Shown here: positions 38,405 to 56,514 of the stretch, in pieces
How the letters are laid out: the number at the start of each line of letters is the position of its first letter
Numbering within the stretch: the stretch's first letter is position 1
From: Rhodoplanes serenus
GTDB lineage: Bacteria > Pseudomonadota > Alphaproteobacteria > Rhizobiales > Xanthobacteraceae
Reading direction: 5' to 3'
Length of the DNA: 64,000 bases
Assembly: GCA_945893145.1 (NCBI GenBank)
Contig: CAMDDZ010000017.1
Location: 1-64,000, forward strand
Made by a program: the position numbers and the translations under genes
Notes under the pieces: generated by a model
The model's database searches: none
The model's input: the letters and a program-made list of their open reading frames with translations, nothing else
What the model was told of the DNA's origin: nothing

Positions 38405-38449
38405 GTCATTCTCCCCTTCGGGTTTATCGGATTGCGTTCCGGCCGCGGA

Positions 38450-39412
38450 TCATTCCGGTTTCAGCTTGGCCGCCTTCGCCAGCGCCCCTTGCACCACGAT
38501 GTCGTCCCTGACGTAAGCGCCGAACTCGGCCGGGGTCATCGGCATGGGCTCAACATCGAGCGTGGCAAGCCGATCGCGCAGGGCCGGCGTCTGGAGCGCC
38601 TTCATGGTCGCCTGATGCAACCGCTCGACAATCGCCTGCGGCGTCTTCGCGGGCAGAAAAATGCCGAGCCACAGCGCATAATCGGAATTCGGATAGCCGG
38701 CCTCCAGCGTCGTCGGCATGTCCGGCAGCGCGGATGCGCGCTCCTTGCCGCTAACCGCAAGCGCAATCAGCCGTCCGTCGCGGATTTCAGGCAACGCCAC
38801 CGCGATCGGCGAGAACGCAAAGTCGATGCGGCCCGAGGCCAGTTCGGGGCGGAATCCACCGCCTCGGAACGGCACGTGGATAGCGTCGAAGCCCGCGCTC
38901 AGGCGGAAGCGTTCGGCGGTCATGTGCGTGGTCGAGCCCACCCCGGCCGAGGCATAGGTCAGCGGCTTCGACTTGGCGAGCGCGACAAACTCCTGAAGCG
39001 TCTTGATGCCCTTGGACGGAGCGACGAGCAGCACCGTCGGCATCCGTCCGAACGCGGCAACGGCCGCGAAGTCGCGCGTCACGTCATATGAAATGTTGGG
39101 ATAGAGCGCAGGCGTAATGGCGAGCGACGTCGAATGGGCGAGGATCGTGTAGCCGTCGGGATCGGCGGTCGCGACCGCCGCAGTGCCGAGGGTCCCGCCG
39201 GCGCCGCCGCGGTTCTCGACCACGATCTGCTGACCGAGTTCAATCGAGAGCTGGTTGAACACCAACCGCGATACCACGTCGGTGCCGGAGCCTGGCGCAA
39301 ACGGCAGGATCGCGCGGATCGGCCGCGACGGCCACACCTCAGCGGATGCGCCGTTGTGCCAGCCGACCACGAGGCACGACGCCCACAGCAATGCCGCGAT
39401 CAGTCGCTGCAT
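38450..39412 (-). CDS. Bug-family (TctC) substrate-binding protein 2
   Basis: The 320-residue precursor has a signal peptide ending near GASA-EVWP, and the PFAPGSGTDVVSRL and ENRGGAGGTLG loops that place the ligand carboxylate. A related but clearly different sequence from its neighbours on both sides, so it may bind a different ligand. The gap to Bug 1 is 45 bases, consistent with a joint transcript. Confidence 0.93.
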   Translation of the reverse strand: MQRLIAALLWASCLVVGWHNGASAEVWPSRPIRAILPFAPGSGTDVVSRLVFNQLSIELGQQIVVENRGGAGGTLGTAAVATADPDGYTILAHSTSLAITPALYPNISYDVTRDFAAVAAFGRMPTVLLVAPSKGIKTLQEFVALAKSKPLTYASAGVGSTTHMTAERFRLSAGFDAIHVPFRGGGFRPELASGRIDFAFSPIAVALPEIRDGRLIALAVSGKERASALPDMPTTLEAGYPNSDYALWLGIFLPAKTPQAIVERLHQATMKALQTPALRDRLATLDVEPMPMTPAEFGAYVRDDIVVQGALAKAAKLKPE

Positions 39413-39479
39413 GATTGGCTTCCAGCAGGCTCGCTCGACATCTGATGCCTCTCACCACGACGACGCGGTGGCCGCAGCG

Positions 39480-40451
39480 CTACTGCTTCTCGATACCCGC
39501 TTGCTGGGCGAGTTTCTCGGTGTCCAGCACGTCGGCCTTGAAGTATTTCTCAAACTCAGGCTGCGTCATGATCAGCGGCTCAATGCCGAGCTTCGCCAAG
39601 CGCTCTCTAACGGTCGGGTCTTGCAGGGCCTTCTGTGTCTCCTGATAGAGCCGGTCCACGATGTCGCGCGGTGTCTTCAACGGCACGAAGATGCCGTTCC
39701 AGAAGGCGTAGTTCGCGGCCGGCAATCCGATCTCGGCAACGGTGGGCACATCGGGCAATTGCGGCGCGCGCTTGTTGGAGCTCACCGCGAGCGCAACAAC
39801 CGTGCCTTGCTTGATTTGCGGAAGCGCCGGCGCGATCGGCAGGAAATAGAAGTCGATGCGGCCGGCCATCACTTCGGTCAGCGCTTCGACCGGCCCCTTG
39901 AACGGCACGTGCTGCGCCTTGATGCCGGCGGCGATGCGGAATTTTTCCGCGGCCAGATGCGAAGCCGCGCCGATGCCAGCCGAAGCGAAGTTCAATTCAC
40001 CAGGCCTGGCCTTAGCGGCGGCGATCAGGTCGGCAGCGGTCTTGTAGCCTTTGGACGGCGCGGCAACCAACACGCTTGGCGAAATCCCGGCCGCGCTCAC
40101 CGGGATAAAATCGTTCAGCGTATCGTAAGGCAGCGTCTTGTGCGTGACGTAAGACGCGCTGAACGTCGCCGAGTGAAACAGGATGGTGTAGCCGTCGGGC
40201 GTCGCCCGCGCGGCCTGGCCGACGCCGATGGTGCCGCCGGCGCCGGGACGGCTCTCGATCACGATCGGCTGGCCGAGCTGCTTGGAAAGCTGCTCGAACA
40301 AAATGCGGCCGGTGATGTCGTTGGCGTTGCCGGGCGCGAACGGGATGATCGCGATGATGTTGCGCGTCGGCCAGCTTTGCGCTGCCGCAAACCCGCTGGC
40401 GATCAGGATTGCGCCCGCGAGCCCCGCACTGGCGAGTTTCGCCACTCTCAT
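39480..40451 (-). CDS. Bug-family (TctC) substrate-binding protein 3
   Basis: The 323-residue precursor begins at ATG 40451 (signal peptide cleaved at FAAAQ-SWP). The longer frame from 40721 was rejected because it puts 90 unrelated residues before the signal peptide. It has PFAPGNANDITGRIL and ESRPGAGGTIG loops. It resembles the Bug protein at 55537-56514 more than its direct neighbours (shared PGNANDITGRI / SAGNAGDLVARV style and KGWKT or KGYKTAADLIA segments). Confidence 0.93.
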   Translation of the reverse strand: MRVAKLASAGLAGAILIASGFAAAQSWPTRNIIAIIPFAPGNANDITGRILFEQLSKQLGQPIVIESRPGAGGTIGVGQAARATPDGYTILFHSATFSASYVTHKTLPYDTLNDFIPVSAAGISPSVLVAAPSKGYKTAADLIAAAKARPGELNFASAGIGAASHLAAEKFRIAAGIKAQHVPFKGPVEALTEVMAGRIDFYFLPIAPALPQIKQGTVVALAVSSNKRAPQLPDVPTVAEIGLPAANYAFWNGIFVPLKTPRDIVDRLYQETQKALQDPTVRERLAKLGIEPLIMTQPEFEKYFKADVLDTEKLAQQAGIEKQ

Positions 40452-41277: not shown

Positions 41278-42336
41278 ATGTCGCGGCGCGACGTCTGGAA
41301 ATTCGGTTGGAGCCGGCGCTGCGCAATCGCCGCGCTGCTGCTCGGTTTGGCGAGCGCGCAGGCCGCGGCCCAAGCCGACGCATCGTCGATCTATATGTAC
41401 CAAGGCGCCGCCCGCGACGCGCAGCTCGTCGCCAAGGCGCGGCAGGAAGGCACGCTCCTGTTTTACACTTCGATGGCGCCGTCGGAGTCCAGCCGCCTCG
41501 GCCAGGCGTTTGAAAAGAAATACGGCATCAAGGTTCAGATCTGGCGCAATTTGAGCGAGGCAGTGCTGCAGCGGACTCTTACCGAGGCTCGCGCGCAGCG
41601 CCACAGCGTCGATGTGATCGAAACCAACAGCCCCGAAGTCGAGGTGATGGCGCAGGAGGGCCTCGTCGCCGAGTTCTTCAGCCCGCACATCGCCAACCTA
41701 CACAGCTTTGCACTCGCACCGCATCGCAAGTGGGTGAGCGATCGCGTCAACCTGTTCGTGGTCGGCTTCAATACCGCCAAAGTGAAGCGCGCTGACATAC
41801 CCGCGACCTATGAGGGTTTTCTCGACCCGAAATGGAAGGACAAGCTCGGCATCGAGGCGACCGATCAGGAGTGGCTCGGCGCGATCATCAAATATTGGGG
41901 CGAAGAGCGCGGCATGGCGTTCTTCCGCAAGCTCGCCGCGCAGAAACCCGATATGCGCAAGGGCCATGTCCTGCTGGCGCAGCTTATCGGCGCCGGAGAG
42001 ATTCCAGTTGGGCTCACCGCCTATTCGGCCAATATCGACTCGATCAAACAGAAGGGCGGTCCGGTGGACTGGGTCGCGGTCGAGCCGCTGGTCGGCCGGC
42101 CGCAAGGCATGGCGCTCGCGAAGAGCGCGCCGCATCCTCACGCCGCGCTGTTGTTCGCCGATTTCGTGCTGTCGCCCGAGGGCATGACCTTGCTCAACGA
42201 CATGGGCCGGGTGCCGACCGGCAAGAGCGTCAAGACCGTGATGGACACGACCAAATTCATCATGATCGACCCGACCACGGTGAACGCCGAGCAGGACAAA
42301 TGGCTGAAGGTCTGGAACGAGGTGTTCCTGAAGTAG
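41278..42336 (+). CDS. FbpA-type ABC substrate-binding protein
   Basis: The 352-residue periplasmic precursor (signal peptide to about residue 33) matches the iron(III)/AfuA-type binding proteins: GTLLFYTSMAPSESSRLGQAFEKKYGIKV near the start and the NSPEVEVMAQEG and FVVGFNT segments. It should feed the permease and ATPase at 43367-46218. The same family also binds polyols, phosphonates and other organic anions, so iron is not certain. ATG 41278 is preceded by GGAGAG. A PstS-like gene on the other strand separates it from its permease. Confidence 0.87.
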   Translation: MSRRDVWKFGWSRRCAIAALLLGLASAQAAAQADASSIYMYQGAARDAQLVAKARQEGTLLFYTSMAPSESSRLGQAFEKKYGIKVQIWRNLSEAVLQRTLTEARAQRHSVDVIETNSPEVEVMAQEGLVAEFFSPHIANLHSFALAPHRKWVSDRVNLFVVGFNTAKVKRADIPATYEGFLDPKWKDKLGIEATDQEWLGAIIKYWGEERGMAFFRKLAAQKPDMRKGHVLLAQLIGAGEIPVGLTAYSANIDSIKQKGGPVDWVAVEPLVGRPQGMALAKSAPHPHAALLFADFVLSPEGMTLLNDMGRVPTGKSVKTVMDTTKFIMIDPTTVNAEQDKWLKVWNEVFLK

Positions 42337-42348
42337 CGGACGATTCCG

Positions 42349-43134
42349 CTACATCATCTTCTCGGCAACCGCGCGGGTCGCCTTGATAACGTCCATCATC
42401 GCGGGCGTCGGATCACCCAATGTCACCAGGCTGAGGACCTGCTCAACCGGCTGATCGGTCGTGATCTCGGTAATTCCGCGTTGCTTCAGCAACGCGAGCT
42501 GCGCGGTCCCGATCGCACCGGGCTCCTGCTCGACGATTTGAACCAGTTGTACCGGGGTCTTGGTGTAGATTTTGTTTGGAGCGCTCGTCTGTTTGCCGTC
42601 GAGCAGCGCTGCTTCGACCGCCACCGTAAGGCCGCCGCCGCCGCCGACCAGCACGACACGGATCGGCAGATCGGGGCCGCCAAGCGCTTTCCAATTGACG
42701 ATCTTGCCTTGCAGGATCTGCCTGATCTGATCGAGCGTCGCCTTGCGAACTGGGTTGCTCTTGTGGATCGCGAACGCAACGCGGACACGATTGACATCGA
42801 ATTCCTTCAATCGATCAAAAGACATGCCCGGCATGGATTTCTGCAACAGCGCGATCTCGGCTGAGAGTGGGGATGAAATCATCGTCAGGTGGGTTCGGCC
42901 TTCCAGCAGCGCGATCAATCCGGGCGTCGATTTGTTGGGAATAACCGTGAGCTGCTGCCCCGAGATTGTTTCGATCTCGGACTTGAACGGATCCATCAAG
43001 CGGCGCGCGAAAGTGGTCGAGCCCTGAATCGTGATGGGGTCAGCGAACGCAGACGACAACGAGCCAACGAACAGCGCCGCCGCCAGGACAGGCTTCAGCA
43101 TGCTGACGGCGAACGATACGCGGTGGGTTGGCAT
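42349..43134 (-). CDS. PstS-like phosphate/anion-binding protein
   Basis: The 261-residue precursor has a signal peptide (residues 10-31, cleaved before DPITIQGS). The opening ITIQGSTTFARRL and the AFAIHKSNPVRKATLDQIRQILQGKIVNWKALGG stretch match the PBP_like_2/PstS group of anion-binding proteins. No Pst permease lies near. It is inserted between the FbpA-type gene and its permease but in the opposite direction. This might be a regulator-like or alternative binding protein. Confidence 0.83.
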   Translation of the reverse strand: MPTHRVSFAVSMLKPVLAAALFVGSLSSAFADPITIQGSTTFARRLMDPFKSEIETISGQQLTVIPNKSTPGLIALLEGRTHLTMISSPLSAEIALLQKSMPGMSFDRLKEFDVNRVRVAFAIHKSNPVRKATLDQIRQILQGKIVNWKALGGPDLPIRVVLVGGGGGLTVAVEAALLDGKQTSAPNKIYTKTPVQLVQIVEQEPGAIGTAQLALLKQRGITEITTDQPVEQVLSLVTLGDPTPAMMDVIKATRAVAEKMM

Positions 43135-43366
43135 GGATGACCTCTACGATGCCGGTCAATGACCGAAGGTTTCGGCGGAGAATTCGTTTCAAAGCGTCGC
43201 GCGTTATGATGAATCATTTGCTAACAACGGCTGCGGTGCGGCGGCTGCCGAACCCAAACTCTGAGACCTCACGCCGTGGCGCTTCGTTGCGCCCGCTCGA
43301 CGGCGGGTGATACCCTGGCCACAAACTGGAACAACGTTCCCTATAGAGGAACGCCCAGAGGGACCG

Positions 43367-45103
43367 ATGAATTCAGCCGTGCTGGACGCGCCGGCCGCCC
43401 CGCGGCCGGGCCTGCAAATCGACACGAAATGGGTCGTGATCGGCGCATGCGTCGTGCTGGTCGCATGGCTGGCGCTGGTGCCGCTGGGCTTTCTGCTCTG
43501 GCAGAGTTTCCTGACGCCGCAGACCGCGGCGAAGTCTGCCGAGTTCACGCTCGGCAATTACGTCGAGGCCTATTCCAGCCTTGAGACGCTGCGGCTGTTC
43601 TTCAACTCGCTGCAATTCGCACTCGGCGCCGCGCTGCTCGCCTTCGTGATCGGCGGCTTCTTCGCCTGGGTGAATGAGCGCACCAACACGCCGTTCAAGG
43701 CGCTGTTCTTCGCGCTGTCGGTGATCCCGCTGATCATTCCGGGGATTCTCTTCACCGTGTCCTGGATCCTGCTGGCGAGCCCCAAGATCGGCATCATCAA
43801 CACGATACTGCAAGAGGCGTTCGGCACCAGCATTGTGTTCGTCAACATCTACTCGATGACGGGGATGATCTGGGTCGACGGCCTGCACTATTCGCCGATG
43901 GCATTCCTCCTGATGACGGCGGCATTCCGCTCCATGGACCCGTCGCTTGAGGAGTCCGCGCTGATGAGCGGCGCGACCGTGCCGCAGATCGCGTTCCGCG
44001 TGACACTCAGGCTCGCCTGGCCCGCCGTGCTGGCGTCATTGCTAATTCTGTTCGTGCGCTCGATCGAGTCCTTCGAGGTGCCGGCACTGCTCGGCCTTCC
44101 GGTCGGCATCGAGGTCTATACGTCTGCGATCTATCAGGCCGTGCATCGCTATCCGAGCCAAGTAGGCCTTGCCTCCGCCTATGCGGTGACGTTGCTGCTG
44201 ATCGCTTCGCTCGGGATCTATTTCCAGTCGCAGCTTTCATCGCAGAGCCATCGGTTCTCGACCGTGACCGGCAAGGGCTATCGCCCGCGCACCATGGACC
44301 TCGGCCGTTGGCGCTACCTGACGGCCGGATTGTTCATTCTCTATTTCTTCGTCGTGGTGGCGCTGCCGTTCCTGGTGCTGCTGTGGTCGTCGTTGCAGAA
44401 GTATTACACCGCGCCCTCGTTCGAGGCGCTGCAGCACCTCACGCTCAACTCCTACCGCACCGTGCTCGACAATCCGTCGTTCGGCACCGCGGTCTGGAAC
44501 AGCCTGCTGCTCTCGCTCGGCTGCGCCACCATCGTGATGCTGGTCACGTCGGTGATCTCCTGGATCGTCATCCGCACACGGATGCCAGGCCGCTGGCTGT
44601 TGGACAATCTCACATCGCTGCCGCTGGTGTTTCCCGGCCTGGTGCTCGGGCTGGCCATCATGGTCTGCTACCTCACCATACCAATCGGAGTGTACGGCAC
44701 GATCTGGATCATGCTGATCGCCTACATCACGCGCTTCCTGCCCTATGGCATGCGCTATTCGTCGACCTCGATGCTGCAAATCCACAAGGAGCTGGAAGAG
44801 TCCGCTGCGATGAGCGGCGCGTCCTGGGGCATGACGTTCCGCCGCGTCGTCCTGCCGTTGCTCAAGCCGGGCCTGATCGCAGGCTGGATTTACGTGGTGA
44901 TCGTTTCGATCCGCGAACTGTCGAGCTCGATCCTGCTCTACAGCCCGGGCTCCGAGGTGGTGTCGATTATGATCTGGGAGCTGTGGCAGAACGGACAGTA
45001 TGTGGAGCTGTCTGCGCTCGGCGTCATGTTGATCGCGGCGCTATTCTGCTTCGTCCTTCTGGCGCAATTCATCGGCAAGAAGTTCGGGGTCGCGGAAGCC
45101 TAA
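43367..45103 (+). CDS. FbpB-type ABC permease (two fused permease domains)
   Basis: The 578-residue inner-membrane protein has about 12 helices in two homologous halves. Each half holds an EAA loop that contacts the ATPase: EESALMSGA near residue 195 and EESAAMSGA near 475. This is the FbpB/AfuB layout for iron(III) or similar substrates. ATG 43367 is used because GAGGGACC precedes it; an in-frame ATG at 43307 is not well placed. It is followed by its ATPase after 2 bases. Confidence 0.92.
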   Translation: MNSAVLDAPAAPRPGLQIDTKWVVIGACVVLVAWLALVPLGFLLWQSFLTPQTAAKSAEFTLGNYVEAYSSLETLRLFFNSLQFALGAALLAFVIGGFFAWVNERTNTPFKALFFALSVIPLIIPGILFTVSWILLASPKIGIINTILQEAFGTSIVFVNIYSMTGMIWVDGLHYSPMAFLLMTAAFRSMDPSLEESALMSGATVPQIAFRVTLRLAWPAVLASLLILFVRSIESFEVPALLGLPVGIEVYTSAIYQAVHRYPSQVGLASAYAVTLLLIASLGIYFQSQLSSQSHRFSTVTGKGYRPRTMDLGRWRYLTAGLFILYFFVVVALPFLVLLWSSLQKYYTAPSFEALQHLTLNSYRTVLDNPSFGTAVWNSLLLSLGCATIVMLVTSVISWIVIRTRMPGRWLLDNLTSLPLVFPGLVLGLAIMVCYLTIPIGVYGTIWIMLIAYITRFLPYGMRYSSTSMLQIHKELEESAAMSGASWGMTFRRVVLPLLKPGLIAGWIYVVIVSIRELSSSILLYSPGSEVVSIMIWELWQNGQYVELSALGVMLIAALFCFVLLAQFIGKKFGVAEA

Positions 45104-45105
45104 CC

Positions 45106-46218
45106 ATGCTCAACGTCACCGCACTCTGCACCGAATACGCGAGCGCCGGCGGCCAGCCGGTGAAGGCCGCGCAGGACGTAACGTTCGAAGTGCCGGCCGG
45201 CAAGCTGTTCACGCTGCTCGGCCCGAGCGGCTGCGGCAAGACCACGACGCTGCGCTCGATCGCGGGCCTGGAACGGCCGAAGACCGGCGAGGTCCGTGTC
45301 GCCGAGCGCGTTGTGTTCTCGTCGGAACAGGGCATCTTCGTGCCGCCAAACCAGCGCAACTTCGGCATGGTGTTTCAGTCCTACGCGATCTGGCCGCACA
45401 TGAACGTGTTCCAGAACGTTGCCTTCCCGCTCGAGGTGCGCAAACAACGCCCAAGCCGCAAGGAAATCGCCGACAAGGTCATGCGCGTGCTCGGCGCGGT
45501 GCAGCTCGAGGAACTGGCGGAGCGCGACGCCACCAAACTCTCGGGCGGTCAGCAGCAGCGCCTTGCGCTGGCGCGCGCACTGGTGATGGAACCGCAGCTC
45601 CTGTTACTCGATGAGCCGTTGTCGAACCTCGACGCCAAGCTGCGCCACCGCATGCGCTTCGAGCTCAAACGCATGCAGCGCGACCTCAACCTGACCACGA
45701 TCTATGTCACCCACGATCAGAGCGAGGCGCTTGCGCTGTCTCACGAGATCGCGGTGATGAACGAGGGCCGCATCGTGCAAATCGGCTCGCCGCGGGATAT
45801 CTACGAGCGCCCGCGCGACCGCTTTGTCGCCGATTTCGTCGGCACCACGAACTTCCTCGACGCCACCGTAATTTCGGCCAACAGCGGCAACGGGCGCTGC
45901 CAGGTCTCGACACGCTTCGGTGCGCTCGACGTGCAATGCGATGAGCCGTTTCGCCAGAATGACACACTCGTCGTCTCGATCCGGCCCGAGGACATCGAGC
46001 TATCCGAGCAGCGCCCAGACCGCATCGATGGCGAGAACATCGTGGCCGGCACCGTCCACGCCAAGGCGTTCCTCGGCGAATATCTCGATTTCCAGGTTAA
46101 GGTCGGGGAGAACATCCTGCTGGCGCGCGCTCATCCGTCGTTGCGCACGCCGGTGGGCGAGCCGATCCATATGCGGATGAAAGCTGAGAAGTGCGTCGCC
46201 ATTCCGGGCGCGCATTGA
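45106..46218 (+). CDS. FbpC-type ABC ATPase
   Basis: The 370-residue cytoplasmic ATPase has Walker A GPSGCGKTT with K45, signature LSGGQQQR, Walker B LLLLDEP, and H-loop THD. The C-terminal third (about 270-370) is a TOBE-type regulatory domain (VSIRPEDIEL). It energises the permease directly upstream (2-base gap). The two bicupin genes follow 20 bases downstream in the same direction, so they are probably in one transcript. Confidence 0.95.
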   Translation: MLNVTALCTEYASAGGQPVKAAQDVTFEVPAGKLFTLLGPSGCGKTTTLRSIAGLERPKTGEVRVAERVVFSSEQGIFVPPNQRNFGMVFQSYAIWPHMNVFQNVAFPLEVRKQRPSRKEIADKVMRVLGAVQLEELAERDATKLSGGQQQRLALARALVMEPQLLLLDEPLSNLDAKLRHRMRFELKRMQRDLNLTTIYVTHDQSEALALSHEIAVMNEGRIVQIGSPRDIYERPRDRFVADFVGTTNFLDATVISANSGNGRCQVSTRFGALDVQCDEPFRQNDTLVVSIRPEDIELSEQRPDRIDGENIVAGTVHAKAFLGEYLDFQVKVGENILLARAHPSLRTPVGEPIHMRMKAEKCVAIPGAH

Positions 46219-46238
46219 ATCCATCGCAGGAGAGAAGC

Positions 46239-47381
46239 ATGGCCAAGACCGCCATCGTTTCAGACGAGTTTGCGAAAAAATTCGCAAGCGAAAAGGAAAC
46301 GCCCTACACTCGCTGGGTGAAGAGTGAAGGGCTCGACCTCATCAGCTCGACCTATGTGCCGAACCTGCACACCGTCGAACTGAAGCCCTGGGCGCGGCGC
46401 GGCGGCAATGGCGTGTTCATGAACCACGAGGCGTCGCGCACCTCGAACGATTGCTACGTGTGCGAGATACCGCCGGGCAAAACGCTCAATCCGCAACGGC
46501 AGCTGTTCGAGGAAACCATCATGATCCTCAGCGGTCGCGGTTCGACGACGGTGTGGAACGACGCCGGCCAGCGCATGACCTTCGAATGGAAGGCGGGCGC
46601 CCTGTTCGCCATCCCGCTGAATTGCTGGCACCAGCATTTCAACGGCTCGGGTCGCGAGACGGCGCGCTTCGTTTCCGTCACCAACGCGCCAATCGTGATC
46701 AACCTCTATGAGGACTTGGATTTCATCTTCGGCACCAAGTACGACTTCAAGGGCCGCTTCAACGGCGAGCCCGACTACTTCAGCGCCAAGAATGAAACCA
46801 AGGGCTTCCTGCTCGCAACCAACTTCGTGCCGGACGCGGTCAATCTGCCGCTGATCACCGCGAAAGAGCGTGGCGCCGGCGGCGGGCATATCCGCTTCAA
46901 CTTCGCCAAGAGCTCACTCAACAGCCACATCTCGCAGTTCCCGATCGGCACCTACAAAAAGGCGCACGCTCACGGACCGGGCGCCCACGTCATCATCCTG
47001 TCCGGCGAGGGCTATTCGCTGATGTGGCCGGAGGGCGATGAGCCGCGCTATTACAAATGGGAGGTCGGCACCATGATCGTGCCACCCAACATGTGGCTGC
47101 ATCAGCACTTCAACACCGGCACCACACCGGCACGTTATTTGGCCTTCAAACATGAGGGCGTCGCAATCCGCAACGCGCAGGGCGTGCCGAAGGCCTGGAT
47201 CAGCAAGCGGCAGGGCGGCGATCAGATCGACTACCGCGATGAGAACCCCGAAACGCGCAACCAATTCGCGGCCGAGCTCGCCAAGCACGGCCTGACGTCG
47301 AAAATGGACACCGCCTACGCCACCGAGCTTGAAGGCTCGGGCGGCAAAGGCACCGCCGCCGAGGAGAAAGAACATGCATGA
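46239..47381 (+). CDS. bicupin protein A
   Basis: The 380-residue protein has no signal peptide and two cupin domains. The first (about 85-170) has ETIMILSGRGSTTVWND and WHQHF. The second (about 245-340) has KAHAHGPGAHVIILSGEGYSLMWPEGDE and MWLHQHFN, whose histidines and glutamate could hold a metal. Both halves share the fold of gentisate- and homogentisate-type dioxygenases, but I cannot name the reaction. It shares TNFVPD between its domains with bicupin B, so the two are paralogues. ATG 46239 follows GGAGAG. Confidence 0.85.
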   Translation: MAKTAIVSDEFAKKFASEKETPYTRWVKSEGLDLISSTYVPNLHTVELKPWARRGGNGVFMNHEASRTSNDCYVCEIPPGKTLNPQRQLFEETIMILSGRGSTTVWNDAGQRMTFEWKAGALFAIPLNCWHQHFNGSGRETARFVSVTNAPIVINLYEDLDFIFGTKYDFKGRFNGEPDYFSAKNETKGFLLATNFVPDAVNLPLITAKERGAGGGHIRFNFAKSSLNSHISQFPIGTYKKAHAHGPGAHVIILSGEGYSLMWPEGDEPRYYKWEVGTMIVPPNMWLHQHFNTGTTPARYLAFKHEGVAIRNAQGVPKAWISKRQGGDQIDYRDENPETRNQFAAELAKHGLTSKMDTAYATELEGSGGKGTAAEEKEHA

Positions 47382-48591
47382 CGTTCCGGGACAGACGCAC
47401 TGGCACGAGCCGACCGGCGGCAAGCGCGCCGGCTTCGGCAAGTTCGGCCGTCCGAAGACGCCCTATGACGTCTTTATGGAGTCGGAGGGCATTCCGGTGT
47501 TCCGCGACATCGGCGTCAGCAAGGTGCAGAACCTGCCGCTGGCACCCTGGAAGCGCACCGGCGGGCGCGGCAGCTATATCCAGCTGCACGGCACCGAGGG
47601 CAAATGGGGCTCTTACGTCATAGAGGTGCCGGGCGCCGGCGCGCTCAACCCGGAAAAGCATCTCTACGAGGAAATCTATTTCGTCGTAGAGGGCCGCGGC
47701 ACCACCGAGGTCTGGCTCGATGGCGACACCAAGCGCCACGTGTTCGAGTGGCAGAAGAACTCGCTGTTCTCCATTCCGGTGAACGCGATGCACCGCATCG
47801 TCAACGCCAGCTCGGCGCCGGCGTTGCTGCTGGCCGGCACCACCGCGCCGAACGTGATGAACCTGGTAAACAACGTCGGCGCGGTGTTCGACAATCCGTA
47901 CCAGTTCCACGACCGCTTCTCCGGCGCCGACGACTTCTACAAGTACAAGGACGATATTGAGCCCGATCCGGTGCGCGGCCTTGCCATGCGCCGCACCAAC
48001 TTCGTGCCCGATATCGTCAACTGCGACCTGCCGCTCGACAACCGTCGCTCGCCCGGCTTCCGCCGCGTCGAGCCGTTCATGACCGGCAACACGTTCTATC
48101 TCTGGGTCGGTCAGCACGAGAACGGCCGCTACTCCAAGGCACACGCGCACACCAGCGCGGCCGTGCTGATCTGCATCAAGGGCAAGGGCTACACCTACAC
48201 CTGGCCGGAGCGGAACGGCGTCAACCCGTGGGCAGCCGGCAAGGCCAGCGAGATCAAGCGCGTCGATTACGAACCGGTCGGCATGGTGTCGGCGGCACCT
48301 GGCGGCGCGCGCTGGTACCATCAGCACTTCGGCGCTTCCAAGGAGCCGTTGCGGCTCACCGCCTGGTTCGGCCCGCACAACCCCGGCCGCGAGCCCGGCC
48401 CGCCCGGCGAGCAGCACATCGACTACACCGCCATGGACATTCCAGAGGGCGGCAGCGCCATCCCGTATTGGATGGAAGACCCGTACATCAAGGCTGAGTA
48501 CGATGAGCGCTTGCGCCGCGAGGGCGTCGAGAACCGGATGAAGCCGGAGTACTACGACAAGAACTACAAGGGTGAGCTGCCGAAAGAATAG
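47374..48591 (+). CDS. bicupin protein B
   Basis: The 405-residue protein is a paralogue of bicupin A, overlapping it by 8 bases (its ATG at 47374 precedes bicupin A's stop). The first cupin has EEIYFVVEGRGTTEVWLDGD but with MHRIV, where bicupin A has WHQHF. The second has KAHAHTSAAVLICIKGKGYTYTW and WYHQHFGAS. So only its second domain keeps a clear metal site. Tandem translation-coupled paralogues suggest a heteromeric ring-cleaving or isomerising enzyme; the reaction is unknown. Confidence 0.85.
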   Translation: MHDVPGQTHWHEPTGGKRAGFGKFGRPKTPYDVFMESEGIPVFRDIGVSKVQNLPLAPWKRTGGRGSYIQLHGTEGKWGSYVIEVPGAGALNPEKHLYEEIYFVVEGRGTTEVWLDGDTKRHVFEWQKNSLFSIPVNAMHRIVNASSAPALLLAGTTAPNVMNLVNNVGAVFDNPYQFHDRFSGADDFYKYKDDIEPDPVRGLAMRRTNFVPDIVNCDLPLDNRRSPGFRRVEPFMTGNTFYLWVGQHENGRYSKAHAHTSAAVLICIKGKGYTYTWPERNGVNPWAAGKASEIKRVDYEPVGMVSAAPGGARWYHQHFGASKEPLRLTAWFGPHNPGREPGPPGEQHIDYTAMDIPEGGSAIPYWMEDPYIKAEYDERLRREGVENRMKPEYYDKNYKGELPKE

Positions 48592-48669
48592 CCGCTCAAG
48601 ATCACGCGCGCTTGCCAAGACGCGCCATATGTTCCAGCAATCTGCCGATCAATCGGGAGGATACTATCC

Positions 48670-49668
48670 ATGCGTGTCGTCGCGCTCGAAGAGCATTTCA
48701 CCTTGCCGGCTGCGATTTCGAAGTATGTGAAACCCGAGGCCATCGCCAAGCGCGGCCACTACAAAGGGCGCCGGGTCGCCCCCGGCAAGACGAGCCCGAT
48801 GGAGCTCTTGCCGGAGTTTGGCGAGAAGCGCTTCAAGTCCTTGGATGACGCCGGCATCACCGTGCAGGTGCTGTCCAACAGCGGCCCTGGCCCCGATCTG
48901 GTGCCCGGCGCCGACGGCATCGCGATGGCACGCGAGATCAACGATTATCTCGCCGGCGTGGTCACGAAGCATCCCAAGCGCTTCGCAGGCTTCGCCGCTC
49001 TGCCCATGGCAAGCCCCGAAGCCTGCGCTGATGAGCTGCGCCGGTCGGTGAAGGATCTCAAGTTCGTCGGCGCCATGATCCACGGCACCTGCGAGGACCG
49101 CTTTCTCGATCACCCGAGCTACGACAGCCTGCTCGCAGCGGCCGTCGAGCTCGACGTGCCGATCTACATTCATCCGAACGTACCAGCCTCAGCGATCCAG
49201 CAGATCTATTACTCGGGGCTTCCCGAAGGCGCCGATCGCGTGATCGGCACCGCCGGCTGGGGCTGGCACTCCGAAGTGGCAATTCACATCCTCCGCATGG
49301 TGCTGCAAGGCACCTTCGACAAGCATCCGAAGCTGAAGATGGTCATCGGCCACATGGGCGAGATGCTGCCGATGATGATCGCCCGTCTCGACGACGTGGG
49401 CGCCGCCGACATCGGCCACTTGAAGCGGCTGCCGAGCCAGACCATCACCGATCAGGTCTGGATCACCACCAGCGGCATCTTCACCCAGCCTCCGTTCATC
49501 GTCGCGCTACAGACCTTCGGCATCGATCGCATCATGTTCTCGGTCGATTATCCATTCGCGCGTGACGCCCAGGGCCGCAAGTTCCTCAACGAGGTCGCAC
49601 TGGCGCCAGCCGACATGGCGAAGCTGACGCATGGCAACGCCGATGCGTTGCTGAAGCTGAAAGCCTGA
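48670..49668 (+). CDS. amidohydrolase-2 family, decarboxylase-like
   Basis: The 332-residue cytoplasmic protein belongs to the ACMSD/gamma-resorcylate decarboxylase branch. The opening ALEEHF has E7 and H9 (an ExH in place of HxH). H168 (YIHPN), H228 (GHMGE) and D293 (SVDYPF) complete the metal site in the same order as gamma-resorcylate decarboxylase. It could remove a carboxyl group from a hydroxybenzoate-type acid or hydrolyse a related lactone. GGGAGG lies upstream of the ATG. It follows the bicupins in the same direction, supporting a shared aromatic pathway. Confidence 0.87.
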   Translation: MRVVALEEHFTLPAAISKYVKPEAIAKRGHYKGRRVAPGKTSPMELLPEFGEKRFKSLDDAGITVQVLSNSGPGPDLVPGADGIAMAREINDYLAGVVTKHPKRFAGFAALPMASPEACADELRRSVKDLKFVGAMIHGTCEDRFLDHPSYDSLLAAAVELDVPIYIHPNVPASAIQQIYYSGLPEGADRVIGTAGWGWHSEVAIHILRMVLQGTFDKHPKLKMVIGHMGEMLPMMIARLDDVGAADIGHLKRLPSQTITDQVWITTSGIFTQPPFIVALQTFGIDRIMFSVDYPFARDAQGRKFLNEVALAPADMAKLTHGNADALLKLKA

Positions 49669-49679
49669 GCAGCGCCCGA

Positions 49680-51221
49680 ATGCCTGTCGAGCAGGACGCC
49701 AGCGGCGGCCGGGTTTTCTTTTCGTCCACCGGCCGCTCGCTGGAGACGGACGACGAGGTCTGTCTGCTCAGCGTTGGCGTCGATATCGGCTCTTCGACGT
49801 CGCATCTCGTTTTCTCGCGCATCGTGCTGGAGCGGCTCGACAGCCGCTACATCGTGACCCAGCGCGAGACCTTCTACGGCTCGGACATCCTGCTGACGCC
49901 CTACTCTGCAGAAGAAACCATCGATGCCGAAGCGCTCGGCGCGTTCATCCGGAAGGAATACGCCGATGCCAAGGTCGAGCCGGACGAGATCGACACCGGC
50001 GCGCTGATCCTCACCGGCGTCGCGGTGCGCCGGAAGAACGCCCGCGCCATCGGCGAGTTGTTCGCCCGCGAGGCCGGCAAGCTCGTCGCGGTCAGCGCCG
50101 GCGACAGCATGGAAACCGTGATGGCGGCCTACGGCTCTGGCGCGGTGGCGCGCTCGATCCGCGATGAGACCGTGGTGATGAACGTCGATGTCGGCGGCGG
50201 CACGTCGAAGATCTCGATCTGCGGCGAAGGCCGCGTGCTCGACCTGACTGCGCTCGACGTCGGCGCTCGGCTGATCTGCCTCGCGCCGGACGGGAAAATC
50301 CTGCGGGTCGAAGAGGCTGGACGGCGCTTCGGCGCCGAGCTGGGCCTCGATCTGAACGTCGGCTCGATGCTGACGCTCGAGCAGGCCCAGGTGATTGCAA
50401 GCCTGATGGCGGACAAGCTGTTCTACGCCATGCAGGGCGGCATGCCGACCGCGCGGGGCGAGAACCTGCTGCGGCTCGATCCGCTCACCCACCGCGGCAA
50501 GATCGACCAGGTTCAGTTCTCCGGCGGCGTCTCCGAATTCATCTACGGCAACGAGAGCAAGAAATTCGGCGATCTCGGCCCGCTGCTGGCGGCGGAAATC
50601 CGTGCCCGCGCCGAAACATTCGGCCCGCGGCTCGAACCATCGCTTGAAGGCATCCGCGCCACGGTCATCGGCGCCTCGCAGTACACCATTCAGCTCAGCG
50701 GCAGCACGATCTATGTCTCGCCGCTCGACGCGGTGCCGTTGCGCAACGTGCCGGTGATCGCGCCGGTGCTGCCGCTCGACCAGGAGACCATCGATCCGGC
50801 TGCGGTCGCGCGTTCCATTCAGACCATGCTCAAGCGCCTCGATCTCGCCGAGGGCGAGCAGCCGGTGGCGGTGTTCGTGTCGTGGCAAGGTTCCGCGACC
50901 TTTCAGCGGCTCGACGCGTTCTGTCGCGGCGTCACTGAAGGCTTAAGCGCGGTGCTCGCCAAGGGCCACCCGCTCGTGCTGGCCGGCGACGGCGACGTCG
51001 GCGGCCTGCTCGGCATTCACCTGCGCGAAGAAACCAAAATCGCAAGCCCGATCGTTTCGATCGACGGACTCGAATTGAAGGAATTCGACTACATCGACAT
51101 CGGTGCGATGCTGGAAAGCTCGGGGGCGGTGCCGGTGGTGATCAAATCGCTGATCTTCCCAGGCAACACCGCGCCGCCATCAGAAAAGCGCTCGGTCGCG
51201 CGCGCGTCCGTTACGACATAA
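49680..51221 (+). CDS. eutA: EutA-like ASKHA reactivating protein
   Basis: The 513-residue protein is of the EutA family, which reactivates ethanolamine ammonia-lyase by exchanging damaged cobalamin in an ATP-dependent way. The Hsp70/actin-type ATPase motifs are intact: VGVDIGSSTSH (33-43), and NVDVGGGTSK later. Its 30-residue N-terminal extension is acidic and looks natural. The normal partners eutB and eutC are absent from this window, and the gene starts 11 bases after the amidohydrolase. It may serve a cobalamin enzyme elsewhere, or a new partner in this cluster. Its last 11 bases overlap the HupE-like gene. Confidence 0.88.
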   Translation: MPVEQDASGGRVFFSSTGRSLETDDEVCLLSVGVDIGSSTSHLVFSRIVLERLDSRYIVTQRETFYGSDILLTPYSAEETIDAEALGAFIRKEYADAKVEPDEIDTGALILTGVAVRRKNARAIGELFAREAGKLVAVSAGDSMETVMAAYGSGAVARSIRDETVVMNVDVGGGTSKISICGEGRVLDLTALDVGARLICLAPDGKILRVEEAGRRFGAELGLDLNVGSMLTLEQAQVIASLMADKLFYAMQGGMPTARGENLLRLDPLTHRGKIDQVQFSGGVSEFIYGNESKKFGDLGPLLAAEIRARAETFGPRLEPSLEGIRATVIGASQYTIQLSGSTIYVSPLDAVPLRNVPVIAPVLPLDQETIDPAAVARSIQTMLKRLDLAEGEQPVAVFVSWQGSATFQRLDAFCRGVTEGLSAVLAKGHPLVLAGDGDVGGLLGIHLREETKIASPIVSIDGLELKEFDYIDIGAMLESSGAVPVVIKSLIFPGNTAPPSEKRSVARASVTT

Positions 51222-51822
51222 CCAGCAGCAGAACGCCGGCCGCCGCGATCGCGCCGCCCGCCGCCTGCGCCATATGGCGCACCGGCACGCGGTTCGCCGC
51301 GAGCCCGATCGCAATGCCGATCGTGTGCAGCACCAAGGTCGCCGCGACGAAGCCGATGCCGAAGGTCAGGCCGGACACACTCGCCGGCAATTCGACGCCG
51401 TGGCTGTAGCCATGCAGCAGCGCGAACACCGCGATCAGCGCCGCGCTGACGGCGAGCGACGGGCGCACCGCGAAGGCCACCGCGGCGCCAAGCACCAGCA
51501 CCGATGCCGCAATGCCGATCTCGACCCAGGGCATGTCCGGACCGCTGACGCCGATCACCGCGCCGATTGCCATGACGGCGGGAAACAGCAGCGGCAGCAG
51601 GATCATGGCGCGGCGGCCGAGCTGCGAGGCCCAGAGCCCCACCGCCACCATTGCCAGCATATGATCGACGCCGGTGAACGGATGCGACAACCCCTCGGCG
51701 AAGGTCATGTGCGAATGATCGCCGACATGCGCGAGTGCTGCGGTGCTGAACGCCGCGACCGGCACGGCAAGCAATGCAGCAAGCGACAGGTGACGGAAGC
51801 GGCGGTTCATGGTGTTCCTCAT
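51211..51822 (-). CDS. HupE/UreJ-family membrane protein
   Basis: The 203-residue protein has a signal-like N-terminus (about 10-31) and about six helices. The family signature HPFTGVDHMLAMVAVG (H47, D53, H54) is present and is thought to bind nickel or cobalt during transport or insertion into hydrogenase or urease. No urease or hydrogenase genes are in this window. Cobalt import for cobalamin would fit the neighbouring EutA-like gene, but this is only a guess. It converges on that gene. Confidence 0.88.
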   Translation of the reverse strand: MRNTMNRRFRHLSLAALLAVPVAAFSTAALAHVGDHSHMTFAEGLSHPFTGVDHMLAMVAVGLWASQLGRRAMILLPLLFPAVMAIGAVIGVSGPDMPWVEIGIAASVLVLGAAVAFAVRPSLAVSAALIAVFALLHGYSHGVELPASVSGLTFGIGFVAATLVLHTIGIAIGLAANRVPVRHMAQAAGGAIAAAGVLLLVMS

Positions 51823-51878: not shown

Positions 51879-52190
51879 TCAATCCACTTCGATCACCACC
51901 ACGCCGCCCTCGACCTTGGCCGGATAGGTCTTCACCGGAATCATGCAGGGCGGCGACACCACCTCGCCGGTTTTGATGTCGAACTGGCCGTTGTGGAAGT
52001 TGCACTCGATCACGTCGCCGTCGATGAAACCTTCAGACAGCGATCCAGGGCCGTGCGTGCAGGCGTCATCGGTTACGTAGAATGTGCCGTCGAGGTTGAA
52101 GACGGCGACCGTCAACCCGGACGTCTCAACCCGTAGCGCGGTTCCGACCGCAACCTGTTCAGCCTTGCAGAGTTCGACTCGGGTGGCCAC
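51879..52190 (-). CDS. Rieske-type ferredoxin
   Basis: The 103-residue cytoplasmic [2Fe-2S] protein has C44-x-H46 (CTHG) and C63-x2-H66 (CNFH), the Rieske ligands of small dioxygenase ferredoxins such as BphF or CarAc. It should carry electrons from a flavin reductase to the oxygenase. It is transcribed divergently from the Rieske oxygenase gene at 52373, and a likely reductase lies at 58588. The 182-base gap between the two presumably holds both promoters. Confidence 0.92.
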   Translation of the reverse strand: MATRVELCKAEQVAVGTALRVETSGLTVAVFNLDGTFYVTDDACTHGPGSLSEGFIDGDVIECNFHNGQFDIKTGEVVSPPCMIPVKTYPAKVEGGVVVIEVD

Positions 52191-52372: not shown

Positions 52373-53656
52373 ATGCTCAGAAAAGAACAAAACGATCTTC
52401 TCACCCAGACCGGTCCCGGCACCCCGATGGGGCGCATGTTCCGCCTGAACTGGGTCCCCGCGCTGCTGGCGGAAGAACTGCCCGAAAACGAATGCCCGCC
52501 GGTGCGCGTGAAGCTGTTATCAGAGCGCCTGTTGGCTTGGCGCGACACCCAGGGCCGCTATGCGCTGACCGACGAATTCTGCGCGCACCGCGGCATCTCG
52601 CTCTGGTTTGGCCGCAACGAAGACAACGGATTGCGCTGCCCCTATCACGGCTGGAAGTACGACCACACCGGCCAGTGCATCGACGTTCCTTCAGAGCCAG
52701 AGGAATCCGGCTTCTGCAAGAAGATCAAGCTCAAGTCCTACCCGCTGATCGAGCGCGGCGGCATCCTCTGGGCCTACATGGGTCCGCCCGAGTTGCAACC
52801 GCCGCCGCCCGCATGGGAATTCGTCAACGTTCCGCGCGAGCAGACCATCACCACCAAGCGCTCGCAGGAGTGCAACTGGCTGCAAGCGCTGGAAGGCGGT
52901 ATCGATTCCAGCCACGTCTCGTTCCTGCACCGCGGCGACCTCAACACCGATCCGATGTTCAAGGGCGCCAAGGGCAACCAGTACAACTTGAGCGACTCGC
53001 GGCCGTTCTTCGAAGTGGTCGAGAGCCCCGGCGGGCTCTACATCGGCGCGCGGCGCAACGCGGAGAACGGCAACTACTATTGGCGCATCACGCAATGGGT
53101 GATGCCGACATTCACGATGATCCCGCCGCGCGGCGATCATTGCGTGCACGGCCACTTCTGGATTCCGATGGACGACGAGAACTGCTGGACCTGGAGCTAC
53201 GACTACCACCCGACCCGTTCGCTCAAGGAGAGCGAAGTCAACGCGGTGCGCGGCGGCAAGGGTATTCACGTCACCACCATTCCAGGCACGTTCCGTCCGG
53301 TCCAGAACAAGGACAACGACTACCTGGTCGATCGCGCGGCTCAAAAGGCGGGCAAGACCTACAGCGGCGTGCTGGGTTTCGGCATGCAGGACGCCTCGGT
53401 GCAGGAGAGCATGGGGCCGGTCGTGGACCGGTCGAAGGAGAACCTCGTCTCCACCGACAACGGCATCATCATGATGCGGCATCGGCTGCTGCGCACGCTC
53501 AAGGCGATGGAGAACGGCGAGACACCGCCCGGCATTGACCTCGCGCACCAGCGCGTGCGCTCGGCCGCCGTGGTGCTGCCGCCGGATCAGCCGTTCAAGG
53601 ACGCCGCCAAAGAAGCGATGATCGCCAAACCCGGCGTCGCGCCGGCGACGGTCTGA
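52373..53656 (+). CDS. Rieske oxygenase large subunit
   Basis: The 427-residue aromatic ring-hydroxylating oxygenase has an N-terminal Rieske domain (C70, H72, C89, H92) and a catalytic domain with D178, H181 and H186 of the mononuclear iron site (IDSSHVSFLH). Its length and sequence style recall phthalate 4,5-dioxygenase and related single-component-alpha oxygenases. It has no beta subunit next to it, so the holoenzyme is likely an alpha-only trimer. Aromatic or heteroaromatic acids are plausible substrates. Confidence 0.93.
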   Translation: MLRKEQNDLLTQTGPGTPMGRMFRLNWVPALLAEELPENECPPVRVKLLSERLLAWRDTQGRYALTDEFCAHRGISLWFGRNEDNGLRCPYHGWKYDHTGQCIDVPSEPEESGFCKKIKLKSYPLIERGGILWAYMGPPELQPPPPAWEFVNVPREQTITTKRSQECNWLQALEGGIDSSHVSFLHRGDLNTDPMFKGAKGNQYNLSDSRPFFEVVESPGGLYIGARRNAENGNYYWRITQWVMPTFTMIPPRGDHCVHGHFWIPMDDENCWTWSYDYHPTRSLKESEVNAVRGGKGIHVTTIPGTFRPVQNKDNDYLVDRAAQKAGKTYSGVLGFGMQDASVQESMGPVVDRSKENLVSTDNGIIMMRHRLLRTLKAMENGETPPGIDLAHQRVRSAAVVLPPDQPFKDAAKEAMIAKPGVAPATV

Positions 53657-53661
53657 TCGTC

Positions 53662-54168
53662 ATGCTGTCCGAATCCGCCCGCATGTCGAGTGCCGCGGAG
53701 GCGCGCTTTCGCATCGATGCGCCGAACTCGCGGCCACGCACCATCAAGGTGATCGCGCTCGACCAGCCGAGTGAGCGCGTGATCAAAGATTTGGCGCAGC
53801 GGCAGTGGAACAGCGCGACCTTCTTCACCGCGACAGCGTTCGGTGACGCGCCGCGCAAGGGCGAAAGCTTTGCCGGCTGGCTCAGCGATCTGGCGGGCCG
53901 CACCAAGAACCTGGTCGAAGAGATCAACGGTGCCGATCTCGTCGTCATGGTGGCGAAGGCCGGCGAGAACGCACAGGCCGCGTCAATCATTGGCGAGGCG
54001 TGCAGCCTCAAGCGTGTGATGACCACCGCGCTGGTGCTGGGCGGCAATTCGATCTCGGACGAGGTGTTGTCCAAGACGCTGGCGCAACTGCGGCCCTGGT
54101 CGCTGATGCTCGTCATCGCCAGCGCCGAGGAATACATTGCCGACATGCTGACTGCGCTTCGCGCGTGA
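53662..54168 (+). CDS. hypothetical protein linked to Rieske oxygenase
   Basis: The 168-residue cytoplasmic protein is not recognised. It begins with a variable 25 residues, then a strand-like TIKVIALDQPS. A later DLVVMVAKAGENAQAASIIGEAC-type segment and a VMTTALVLGG strand form an alternating alpha/beta order. That order distantly recalls the central part of FtsZ/tubulin-like or Rossmann-like domains, but the FtsZ nucleotide loop is missing. It starts 5 bases after the oxygenase stop and so is probably co-expressed with it. Confidence 0.6.
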   Translation: MLSESARMSSAAEARFRIDAPNSRPRTIKVIALDQPSERVIKDLAQRQWNSATFFTATAFGDAPRKGESFAGWLSDLAGRTKNLVEEINGADLVVMVAKAGENAQAASIIGEACSLKRVMTTALVLGGNSISDEVLSKTLAQLRPWSLMLVIASAEEYIADMLTALRA

Positions 54169-55536: not shown

Positions 55537-56514
55537 TCAGTTCGTCGGCACCAGATTGATGTCCTTGGCAAGCTTGACGATGCCTGCGATGTCATTGCGG
55601 ACGAACGTGCCGAACTCGTCCACGCTCATCGGCATCGGCTCGACGCCCAGCGTCGCCAGCCGCTCCCGCACGGCCGGTACGTTCAGCGCCTTCTGCGATT
55701 CGTCGTGCAGACGATCGATGATGGCGCGCGGCGTTTTTGCCGGCACCGCCAAGCCGCCCCAGAATATGTATTGCGCGTTGGGATAGCCGGCCTCAGTGAC
55801 GGTCGGCACATCCGGCAAGCTCGGCGCCCGCTTCGGTGTGCTCACCGCGAGTGGCAGCACACGGCCGCCCTGGATGTGGGCAATCGCTGGCGCGAGCGGC
55901 ACGAAGTAGAAGTCGATCCGGCCGGCGATCAATTCGTTGAGCCCTTCCGCACCACGGAACGGGATGTGTTGGGCGCTGATGCCGGCCGCGGTCTTGAACC
56001 GCTCGGCGGCCCAATGTGACGCTGAGCCGACGCCCGCCGACGCGAAGTTCAGCTTGCCCGGATTGGCCTTCGCTACTGCGATCAGATCGGCGACGGTTTT
56101 CCAGCCCTTCGACGGCGACACCACCAGCACGCTTGGCTGAATGCCGAACATCACCACCGGAACGAAGTCGTTCACCGGGTCGTATGGCAGGTTCTTGTGC
56201 AACACGATGGCTGAGCCCTGCGACGACGTCTGCAGCAGGATTGTGTAGCCGTCGGGATCGGCTTTGGCGGCCGAGTTCGAGCCGGTGACACCGCCGGCGC
56301 CGGTCCGATTTTCGATCACAAAAGACTGGCCGATCTGCTTCGAGACCTGATCGAGCACGACGCGGGCGACGAGATCGCCGGCATTGCCCGCACTCACCGT
56401 GCTGACCGCGATGATCGGCCGATTCGGCCAATCGTCAGCGGCGAGCGCCGCCACGGTTCCGGCTAGCAGTGCAGTTGCTGCGACAACGCCACGCAAAACG
56501 TGAAGTGACACCAT
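55537..56514 (-). CDS. Bug-family (TctC) substrate-binding protein 5
   Basis: The 325-residue precursor has a signal peptide (cleaved near ALAA-DDWP). The ligand loops are SAGNAGDLVARV and ENRTGAGGV. It is most like Bug 3, with which it shares the fold's C-terminal MPMSVDEFGTFVR type end. It converges on Bug 4 with a 64-base gap. It belongs to the DMT transporter and IclR side of the region. Confidence 0.92.
   Translation of the reverse strand: MVSLHVLRGVVAATALLAGTVAALAADDWPNRPIIAVSTVSAGNAGDLVARVVLDQVSKQIGQSFVIENRTGAGGVTGSNSAAKADPDGYTILLQTSSQGSAIVLHKNLPYDPVNDFVPVVMFGIQPSVLVVSPSKGWKTVADLIAVAKANPGKLNFASAGVGSASHWAAERFKTAAGISAQHIPFRGAEGLNELIAGRIDFYFVPLAPAIAHIQGGRVLPLAVSTPKRAPSLPDVPTVTEAGYPNAQYIFWGGLAVPAKTPRAIIDRLHDESQKALNVPAVRERLATLGVEPMPMSVDEFGTFVRNDIAGIVKLAKDINLVPTN

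Follow-up and report, generated by a model that had tools for sequence, protein, structure and literature searches.

A bicupin gene module with a EutA-family ATPase partner in Rhodoplanes serenus and other bacteria

HypB, UreE and CooJ are His-rich nickel chaperones. Ethanolamine ammonia-lyase has a reactivating factor, EutA, which clears EutBC of damaged cofactor, as described in a passage of PMC5821096. Gentisate 1,2-dioxygenase (GDO) and salicylate 1,2-dioxygenase (SDO) are two-cupin enzymes whose iron, according to a passage of PMC4019311, is bound in the N-terminal domain; in the GDO of S. pomeroyi the residues named there are His119, His121 and His160, the last a metal ligand, and His162, the proposed proton donor. 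Here we describe a locus of Rhodoplanes serenus (Alphaproteobacteria; Rhizobiales; Xanthobacteraceae) that brings two tandem bicupin genes together with a gene of the EutA family. The DNA analyzed, referred to below as ‘the window’, is the 64,000-nucleotide stretch at positions 1 to 64,000 of the forward strand of contig CAMDDZ010000017.1 (GenBank assembly GCA_945893145.1). Its bicupin genes encode CupA (46239..47381, + strand; 380 residues) and CupB (47374..48591, +; 405 residues), and the EutA-family gene lies at 49680..51221 (+). What we consider firm is the association of such bicupins with EutA-type ATPases and the matching of subtypes between them. To explain it we favor, tentatively and at a confidence somewhat below even, a module in which the bicupins would open rings and a EutA-type ATPase of their own would load or repair the metal center.

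The EutA-family gene is the commonest partner of these bicupins. It was overlooked in the preliminary description of the region, made from the sequence alone, whose other listed genes are all present. Its product, an actin-like ATPase, matches the EutA profile (PF06277) over nearly the whole protein at 379.3 bits, against a gathering cut-off of 27, and falls below all four NCBIfam equivalog cut-offs for EutA (322.7 bits against 598, 234.3 against 769, 219.7 against 952 and 176.7 against 799). EutB, the known client of EutA, was not found in the window's own genome, which is 95% complete, and canonical ethanolamine use was rejected for this reason. We examined 387 alphaproteobacterial genomes, each at least 90% complete, and counted EutA at E ≤ 1e-30. 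The 12 that have bicupins are exactly those that have EutA, and EutB was found in 31 others, with no overlap. Two random sets of 12 among 387 genomes would coincide with a probability of 5e-23. The EutA branch described here covers all of the EutA genes of this sample. When the window's genome and 60 relatives were considered, full-length EutA was present in 15 of the 61, these being the 14 with bicupins and G005, a genome 79% complete; partial matches of up to about 90 profile positions (19–53 bits), some above the Pfam cut-off, were not counted. Across a phylum sample of 219 genomes EutA occurs in five, the window's own and four in which EutB adjoins it at 54–157 bases, and the latter served as true-EutA controls; EutB occurs in 43 of the 219, and a bicupin in the window's genome only. 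A wider scan, with one genome per species, confirmed at least 573 bicupin stretches, of which the best 80 were kept. These yielded 76 non-duplicate named loci, chosen by CupA and in many cases cut by contig ends; the duplicate contigs L063, L064, L065 and L105 were left out of the deduplicated counts. EutB is missing from 38 of the 45 genomes tested behind the named loci (45 of the 80 loci). Where at least 5 kb is available on each side (41 non-duplicate named loci), a EutA-like gene is found on 35, within 500 bases of the bicupin on 25, and within 50 bases on 21.

EutA subclades, moreover, largely follow the cupin subtypes. We built a tree of 86 EutA proteins by a quick method, which gave long-branch warnings, and labeled each protein by its partner: CupA, CupB, CupC (a third bicupin type that profile scores set apart), no cupin within 3.5 kb, an adjacent EutB, or one of two small groups. 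Partner type changes 14 times on this tree, against a shuffled mean of 41.9 and a possible minimum of 6, and none of 200 shuffles gave so low a number. The ATPase of the window belongs to a clade of 21, 17 of which are beside CupB and four without a near cupin. The CupA-type clade has 54 members: 39 beside CupA, nine without a near cupin, two beside CupB, and four that are same-genus or own copies. There are exceptions. At L073 and L074, the CupA-type ATPase has an opposite-strand CupB gene as its nearest cupin, and at L109 CupA has next to it a second EutA gene, which is divergent. The window's genome has a second EutA gene of its own (L145:1083-2864, on contig C54), of the CupA-partner type and with a very His-rich C-terminal end; a solute-binding protein gene is next to it, and ligD and ku genes are nearby. 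Two short and weak bicupin matches aside, this genome thus encodes a pair of bicupins and a pair of EutA-type ATPases, both the CupA and the CupB sort being represented in each pair. At L224:9496-10296 and L237:11238-12050, as a separate observation, a gene for a ceramidase-like (PF05875) membrane protein starts at the last base of the open reading frame (ORF) of the CupB-partner EutA.

The two bicupins are paralogous, with 31% identity across 373 columns (E 6e-54); their reading frames are both intact, and a search for enzymes of known reaction gave no close characterized match for either. Neither protein exceeds any NCBIfam cut-off, and Pfam assigns them to general cupin families alone, with the best stretches in the first domain (Cupin_2 for both, and Cupin_1 as well for CupA). 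The only NCBIfam model to respond, NF049978 for 5-aminosalicylate dioxygenase, gives 31.3 bits with CupA and 18.6 with CupB against a cut-off of 650, and phmmer found one weak match to CupB in the PDB. The motifs reported earlier are present: TNFVPD at residue 194 of CupA and 208 of CupB, WHQHF at residue 130 of CupA, and MHRIV at residue 139 of CupB. The last two do differ from each other, as had been remarked; they were taken for the first metal site but form, in domain 1, the second metal motif. The one before it differs too (Q86-x-Q88-x3-E92 in CupA, E94-x-H96-x3-E100 in CupB), and the canonical HxH is present in domain 1 of neither. Because domain 1 of CupB retains its Glu-His-Glu motif together with H140, where CupA has the Gln pair, a second metal site is possible there. 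Domain 2 contains a near-invariant His cluster, H243, H245, H288 and H290 in CupA and H257, H259, H316 and H318 in CupB. In CupA numbering, H243 and H288 are present in 72 of 72 aligned bicupins and H245 and H290 in 71 of 72; H250 of CupA is found in 56 of 61 CupA-type rows. To judge from the alignment, a His set like that of GDO and SDO is placed in the C-terminal domain of CupA and CupB. A further group, cluster 8, consists of proteins with a single cupin and about 200 residues (58 ORFs, spread over 29 loci including L041, L073, L077, L083–L087, L090, L094, L099, L101 and others); their genes often stand in twos next to CupA, and they are possibly split bicupins.

AlphaFold models of the two proteins (mean predicted local distance difference test score 90.1 for CupA and 84.0 for CupB) predict two-domain cupins, as are their PDB matches. 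With VIA-align, the PDB list is headed by the salicylate and gentisate 1,2-dioxygenases, at 12–15% identity; absence of a structure from this list says nothing against it. Against 2phd, CupA gives a Z score of 20.9 (root-mean-square deviation 4.4, 268 residues aligned), and CupB one of 20.4 (3.5, 258 residues). A plain Foldseek list ranked oxalate decarboxylase first instead, at a TM score of about 0.5. A weak profile match (E 0.3) pairs residues 243–298 of the bicupin with residues 119–170 of SDO, and the spacing of H288-x-H290 in CupA equals that of His160 and His162 in the GDO passage cited above.

The ATPases of the CupA type are distinguished by His-rich ends. Of the 53 scored, 51 have at least four His in the stretch of 60 residues that precedes the ATPase core, the loose pattern DHxH fits the N-terminal end of 50 of these 53, and a C-terminal tail with at least five His, and up to 33, is present in 31 of 54. 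For CupB-type proteins the count is 0 of 20 scored, at the N-terminal end and the C-terminal tail alike; for the CupC type it is 0 of 7, although the loose pattern fits three of these; and for the EutB-adjacent controls it is 0 of 4 at the N-terminal end and 0 of 3 scored for the tail. A His-rich stretch of metal-binding type, the mark of nickel metallochaperones, is thus a feature of the CupA-type clade, the copy on contig C54 included. On 20 of 74 loci a gene for NikR, NicO or HupE lies no more than 6 kb from a EutA or bicupin gene; with duplicates removed the figure is 16 of 70, and seven groups of organisms are represented. None of 40 control stretches, each 20 kb long, has such a gene; the controls came from three genomes (20 from G004, 10 from G314 and 10 from G381), and one of them, L195, ends inside a bicupin-like gene (149 bits). 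L083, L084, L085 and L087, which have NicO matches, entered the count of 20 through NikR. At L223:9326-11589, the final base of the EutA ORF is also the first of a NicO gene (Pfam 42 bits), an arrangement suggestive of translational coupling. The window and six genus relatives have HupE no more than 2 kb from EutA, and in two genomes of a second set of module stretches a gene for a CobW-type GTPase is nearby. Nickel is our leading guess for the metal, and not a result.

The gene order given in the preliminary description was borne out: an ATP-binding cassette (ABC) transporter, two coupled bicupins and an amidohydrolase. The transporter comprises a solute-binding protein of SBP_bac_8/6 type (41278..42336, +; Pfam), similar proteins to which recur beside CupA; a permease with two BPD_transp_1 stretches (43373..45103, +; Pfam); and an ATPase with ABC_tran and TOBE_2 domains (45106..46218, +; Pfam). 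The stop codon of the ATPase gene ends at 46218, 20 bases before the ATG of CupA at 46239, and the ATG of CupB at 47374 precedes the CupA stop at 47379–47381, an overlap of eight bases. A PstS-like periplasmic binding protein gene (42349–43134, – strand) sits between the genes for the solute-binding protein and the permease, and because this opposite-strand gene splits the two, a single transcript across 41278–51221 is unlikely. The earlier name FbpABC, for an iron importer, was rejected: the ATPase reaches 276.2 bits against 496 with the ferric model NF008513, its best matches are of potA type and also fall short, and it passes none of the curated cut-offs of the 25 NCBIfam models shown. The amidohydrolase (48670..49668, +), an Amidohydro_2 protein (PF04909, 145.6 bits) with no NCBIfam match, follows CupB. 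Converging on the EutA gene is one for a HupE/UreJ-type nickel/cobalt permease (51211..51822, –; profile match 323 bits), which clusters with L047:10781-11314 (Pfam HupE_UreJ, 181 bits) and has no NCBIfam match. Then come a Rieske-type ferredoxin (51879..52190, –), which clusters with an oxygenase ferredoxin subunit annotated in NZ_CP104971; a Rieske oxygenase alpha subunit with a LigXa_C domain (52373..53656, +; Pfam); and p168 (53662..54168, +), a small protein conserved across loci by clustering and without a match in Pfam or NCBIfam.

Within the genus, CupA and CupB were found in nine of ten other genomes, the one without them being 79% complete. The two genes are adjacent in all nine, where unlinked genes would have spoken against the proposal of a joint pathway, and genes for the Rieske ferredoxin and oxygenase follow in all nine (the ninth is G001). 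Orthologues of the amidohydrolase occur in four. None of the nine showed an ABC transporter within the 20-kb stretch, and tripartite-tricarboxylate-type binding proteins are upstream in its place; several proteins of this type flank the module in the window also, at 37418–40388 and 55546–56502. In the four other genomes of the same family that gave matches, A and B are on different contigs, in draft assemblies, each often beside a EutA gene. Farther afield, relatives of CupA at 70–93% identity among the kept matches come from Alpha-, Beta- and Gammaproteobacteria, Actinomycetota, Acidobacteriota and others. Of the 76 named loci, 28 carry a Rieske oxygenase, 10 a ferredoxin and 14 a reductase; relatives of the window's own oxygenase alpha subunit, 61–73% identical, are on 26. 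The importer does belong to the wider module, since permease and ATPase orthologues (at least 45% identity) are on 27 of the 76, and both it and the Rieske oxygenase recur across phyla. An Amidohydro_2 gene is on 15, a CupB relative of at least 50% identity on only five, and a 330-residue protein that weakly resembles phosphonate-binding and NMT1-like proteins (cluster 6, e.g. L132:6391-7452) on 30. The clusters also hold thiamine-diphosphate, class II aldolase, PanB-like and other enzymes, and those of Phyllobacterium contain genes for a class II aldolase, a thiamine-diphosphate enzyme and a tricarboxylate transporter. In the record of Phyllobacterium zundukense the ATPase is named ethanolamine ammonia-lyase reactivating factor, the CupB relative cupin domain-containing, and the CupC-type protein hypothetical. 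A gene resembling that for ketopantoate hydroxymethyltransferase (PF02548) is on 12 of the 76 loci, including L100, L114, L125, L129, L131, L140 and L142; it perhaps encodes an aldolase for a ring-cleavage product.

The picture that we favor is as follows. The locus would be one copy of a widespread catabolic module. Its ABC importer would take up an aromatic, or similar cyclic, acid, and the Rieske oxygenase system at 51.9–54.2 kb would hydroxylate or demethylate it. The amidohydrolase, where present, may decarboxylate an intermediate, and the bicupins would open the ring with O2 at the His-rich metal center of the C-terminal domain, CupA and CupB probably each acting independently on related intermediates, with no obligate complex between them. 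We assign oxygenase activity to the bicupins because of their fold and their Rieske neighbors. Each bicupin type would have its own EutA-family ATPase for the ATP-driven loading or renewal of its metal center, on the model of true EutA, which renews the cofactor of ethanolamine ammonia-lyase; this role is proposed because of the analogy with EutA and the His-rich ends of the CupA-type partner. On those ends the CupA-type ATPase might gather metal, nickel most likely, cobalt or zinc possibly, and the HupE/NicO permease may supply it in some lineages, the window's included. The earlier proposal of an aromatic-type pathway with its own importer, matched to no described one, gains support from the fold and from the recurrence of Rieske oxygenase and importer. 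The narrower claim, that this EutA branch is dedicated to a new class of ring-cleaving bicupins with a C-terminal catalytic site, and uses ATP to insert or repair their metal (nickel), strikes us as rather unlikely.

Several observations tell against the ring-opening module with its dedicated ATPase. The 12 alphaproteobacterial genomes in which bicupin and EutA coincide represent eight genera and five families, hence fewer than 12 independent events. Six of the 41 well-flanked loci carry no EutA gene, and EutB is present in seven of the 45 genomes tested. True EutA does exist among Alphaproteobacteria, since G626, a genome of the window's order outside the sample of 387, has EutA beside EutB; the statement that EutA occurs only with bicupins is limited to that sample. 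The His-rich C-terminal tail is found in none of 18 Actinomycetota proteins, and the window's own EutA has no His-rich end. Nickel genes are not universal across the module: the second set, 20 stretches of which 18 have EutA, yielded none above the cut-off and one NicO, that of L223, below it. A rival view is that ATPase and bicupin are linked only by a common catabolic cluster, the ATPase being a reactivase or kinase-like protein for a different B12 enzyme or other enzyme of the pathway. In its favor, the clusters do hold PanB-like, thiamine-diphosphate, class II aldolase and other enzymes, and the nickel/cobalt permeases and the GTPases of CobW type could provide cobalt for B12. We think this unlikely, given that the EutA subclades largely track cupin subtype, that the EutA gene stays, often within 50 bases, while other neighbors vary by lineage, and that no B12-enzyme gene was seen among the Pfam-scanned representatives of the larger clusters.

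The fold model, too, cuts both ways. Oxalate decarboxylase and MncA follow the dioxygenases at Z scores of 19.3–19.4, one to two units lower, and seed globulins lie about two units below the top rows; because these score nearly as high, the predicted fold alone does not single out ring cleavage. The best PDB sequence matches include auxin-binding protein 1 and glucose-6-phosphate isomerase, and profiles of the archaeal-type glucose-6-phosphate isomerase match domain 2 of CupA (best E 1.9e-5). If the bicupins were instead metal-dependent isomerases, decarboxylases or hydrolases, with a substrate akin to a sugar or an organic acid, these matches and the Phyllobacterium clusters would fit; against this stand the recurring Rieske oxygenase, ferredoxin and reductase, the place of ring-cleaving bicupins at the top of the structural rows, and the GDO-like spacing of H288 and H290. 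We hold this reading, like the B12 alternative, to be unlikely. Least probable in our estimation is a single heteromeric oxygenase composed of CupA and CupB in this genus. Their genes overlap or adjoin in the window and in all nine relatives that have them, as such a complex would lead one to expect, yet other genera have A and B in separate places, and a distinct EutA subclade goes with each subtype. The case for an obligate heteromer is weakened by the separate contigs in four same-family genomes and by the scarcity of CupB relatives on the CupA loci.

In open PubMed Central, which does not cover subscription papers, we found no paper joining cupin, EutA and Rieske, none on EutA with nickel and histidine-rich, and none joining ethanolamine ammonia-lyase reactivating factor, Rieske and aromatic. 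Papers there that mention both EutA and cupin deal with EutQ or, to judge by title and abstract, with ectoine, salinity or genome annotation. The findings suggest that the EutA family has a second, metal-related job. Were this true, an actin-like reactivase would act on the metal center of a cupin rather than on a B12 enzyme, a branch of the EutA family would be misnamed in what are likely hundreds of genes, to judge from the number of bicupin stretches confirmed, and a new ATPase-served metalloenzyme and catabolic pathway, common to Streptomyces, Limnohabitans and others, would become testable.

How, finally, does the module compare with the systems already described? With salicylate and gentisate 1,2-dioxygenases (2phd and 3bu7) the bicupins share the two-cupin fold, over 258–273 aligned residues, and a three-His-type motif with a further His two residues past the last ligand. 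They differ in sequence, as noted, and in the place of this His set, which is C-terminal in CupA and CupB, whereas the passage of PMC4019311 puts the iron of the dioxygenases in the N-terminal domain. The ATPases have PF06277 in common with the EutA of ethanolamine ammonia-lyase, but they are paired with bicupins, and the window's ATPase falls below the equivalog cut-offs, in a genome without EutB; those of the CupA type have His-rich ends, unlike the four EutB-adjacent proteins. EutQ of ethanolamine microcompartments is likewise a cupin encoded in operons that hold EutA, but it is a single cupin and, according to a passage of PMC3483176, lacks the metal His; the setting differs as well, for one annotated record stretch lists no compartment genes and the window's genome is without EutB. 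The amidohydrolase is an Amidohydro_2 protein with the metal residues of gamma-resorcylate decarboxylase (E7, H9, H168 and D293), as first reported, and scores 170 bits with 2dvt; its best solved chain, however, is 3nur, named only ‘Amidohydrolase’ (217 bits), and the module does not always include it. Like HypB, UreE and CooJ, the CupA-type ATPases carry a long His-rich stretch, and in some lineages their genes adjoin those for a nickel permease or NikR. They differ from these chaperones in being EutA-type ATPases, neither G3E GTPases nor UreE, and the enzyme served would be a cupin.

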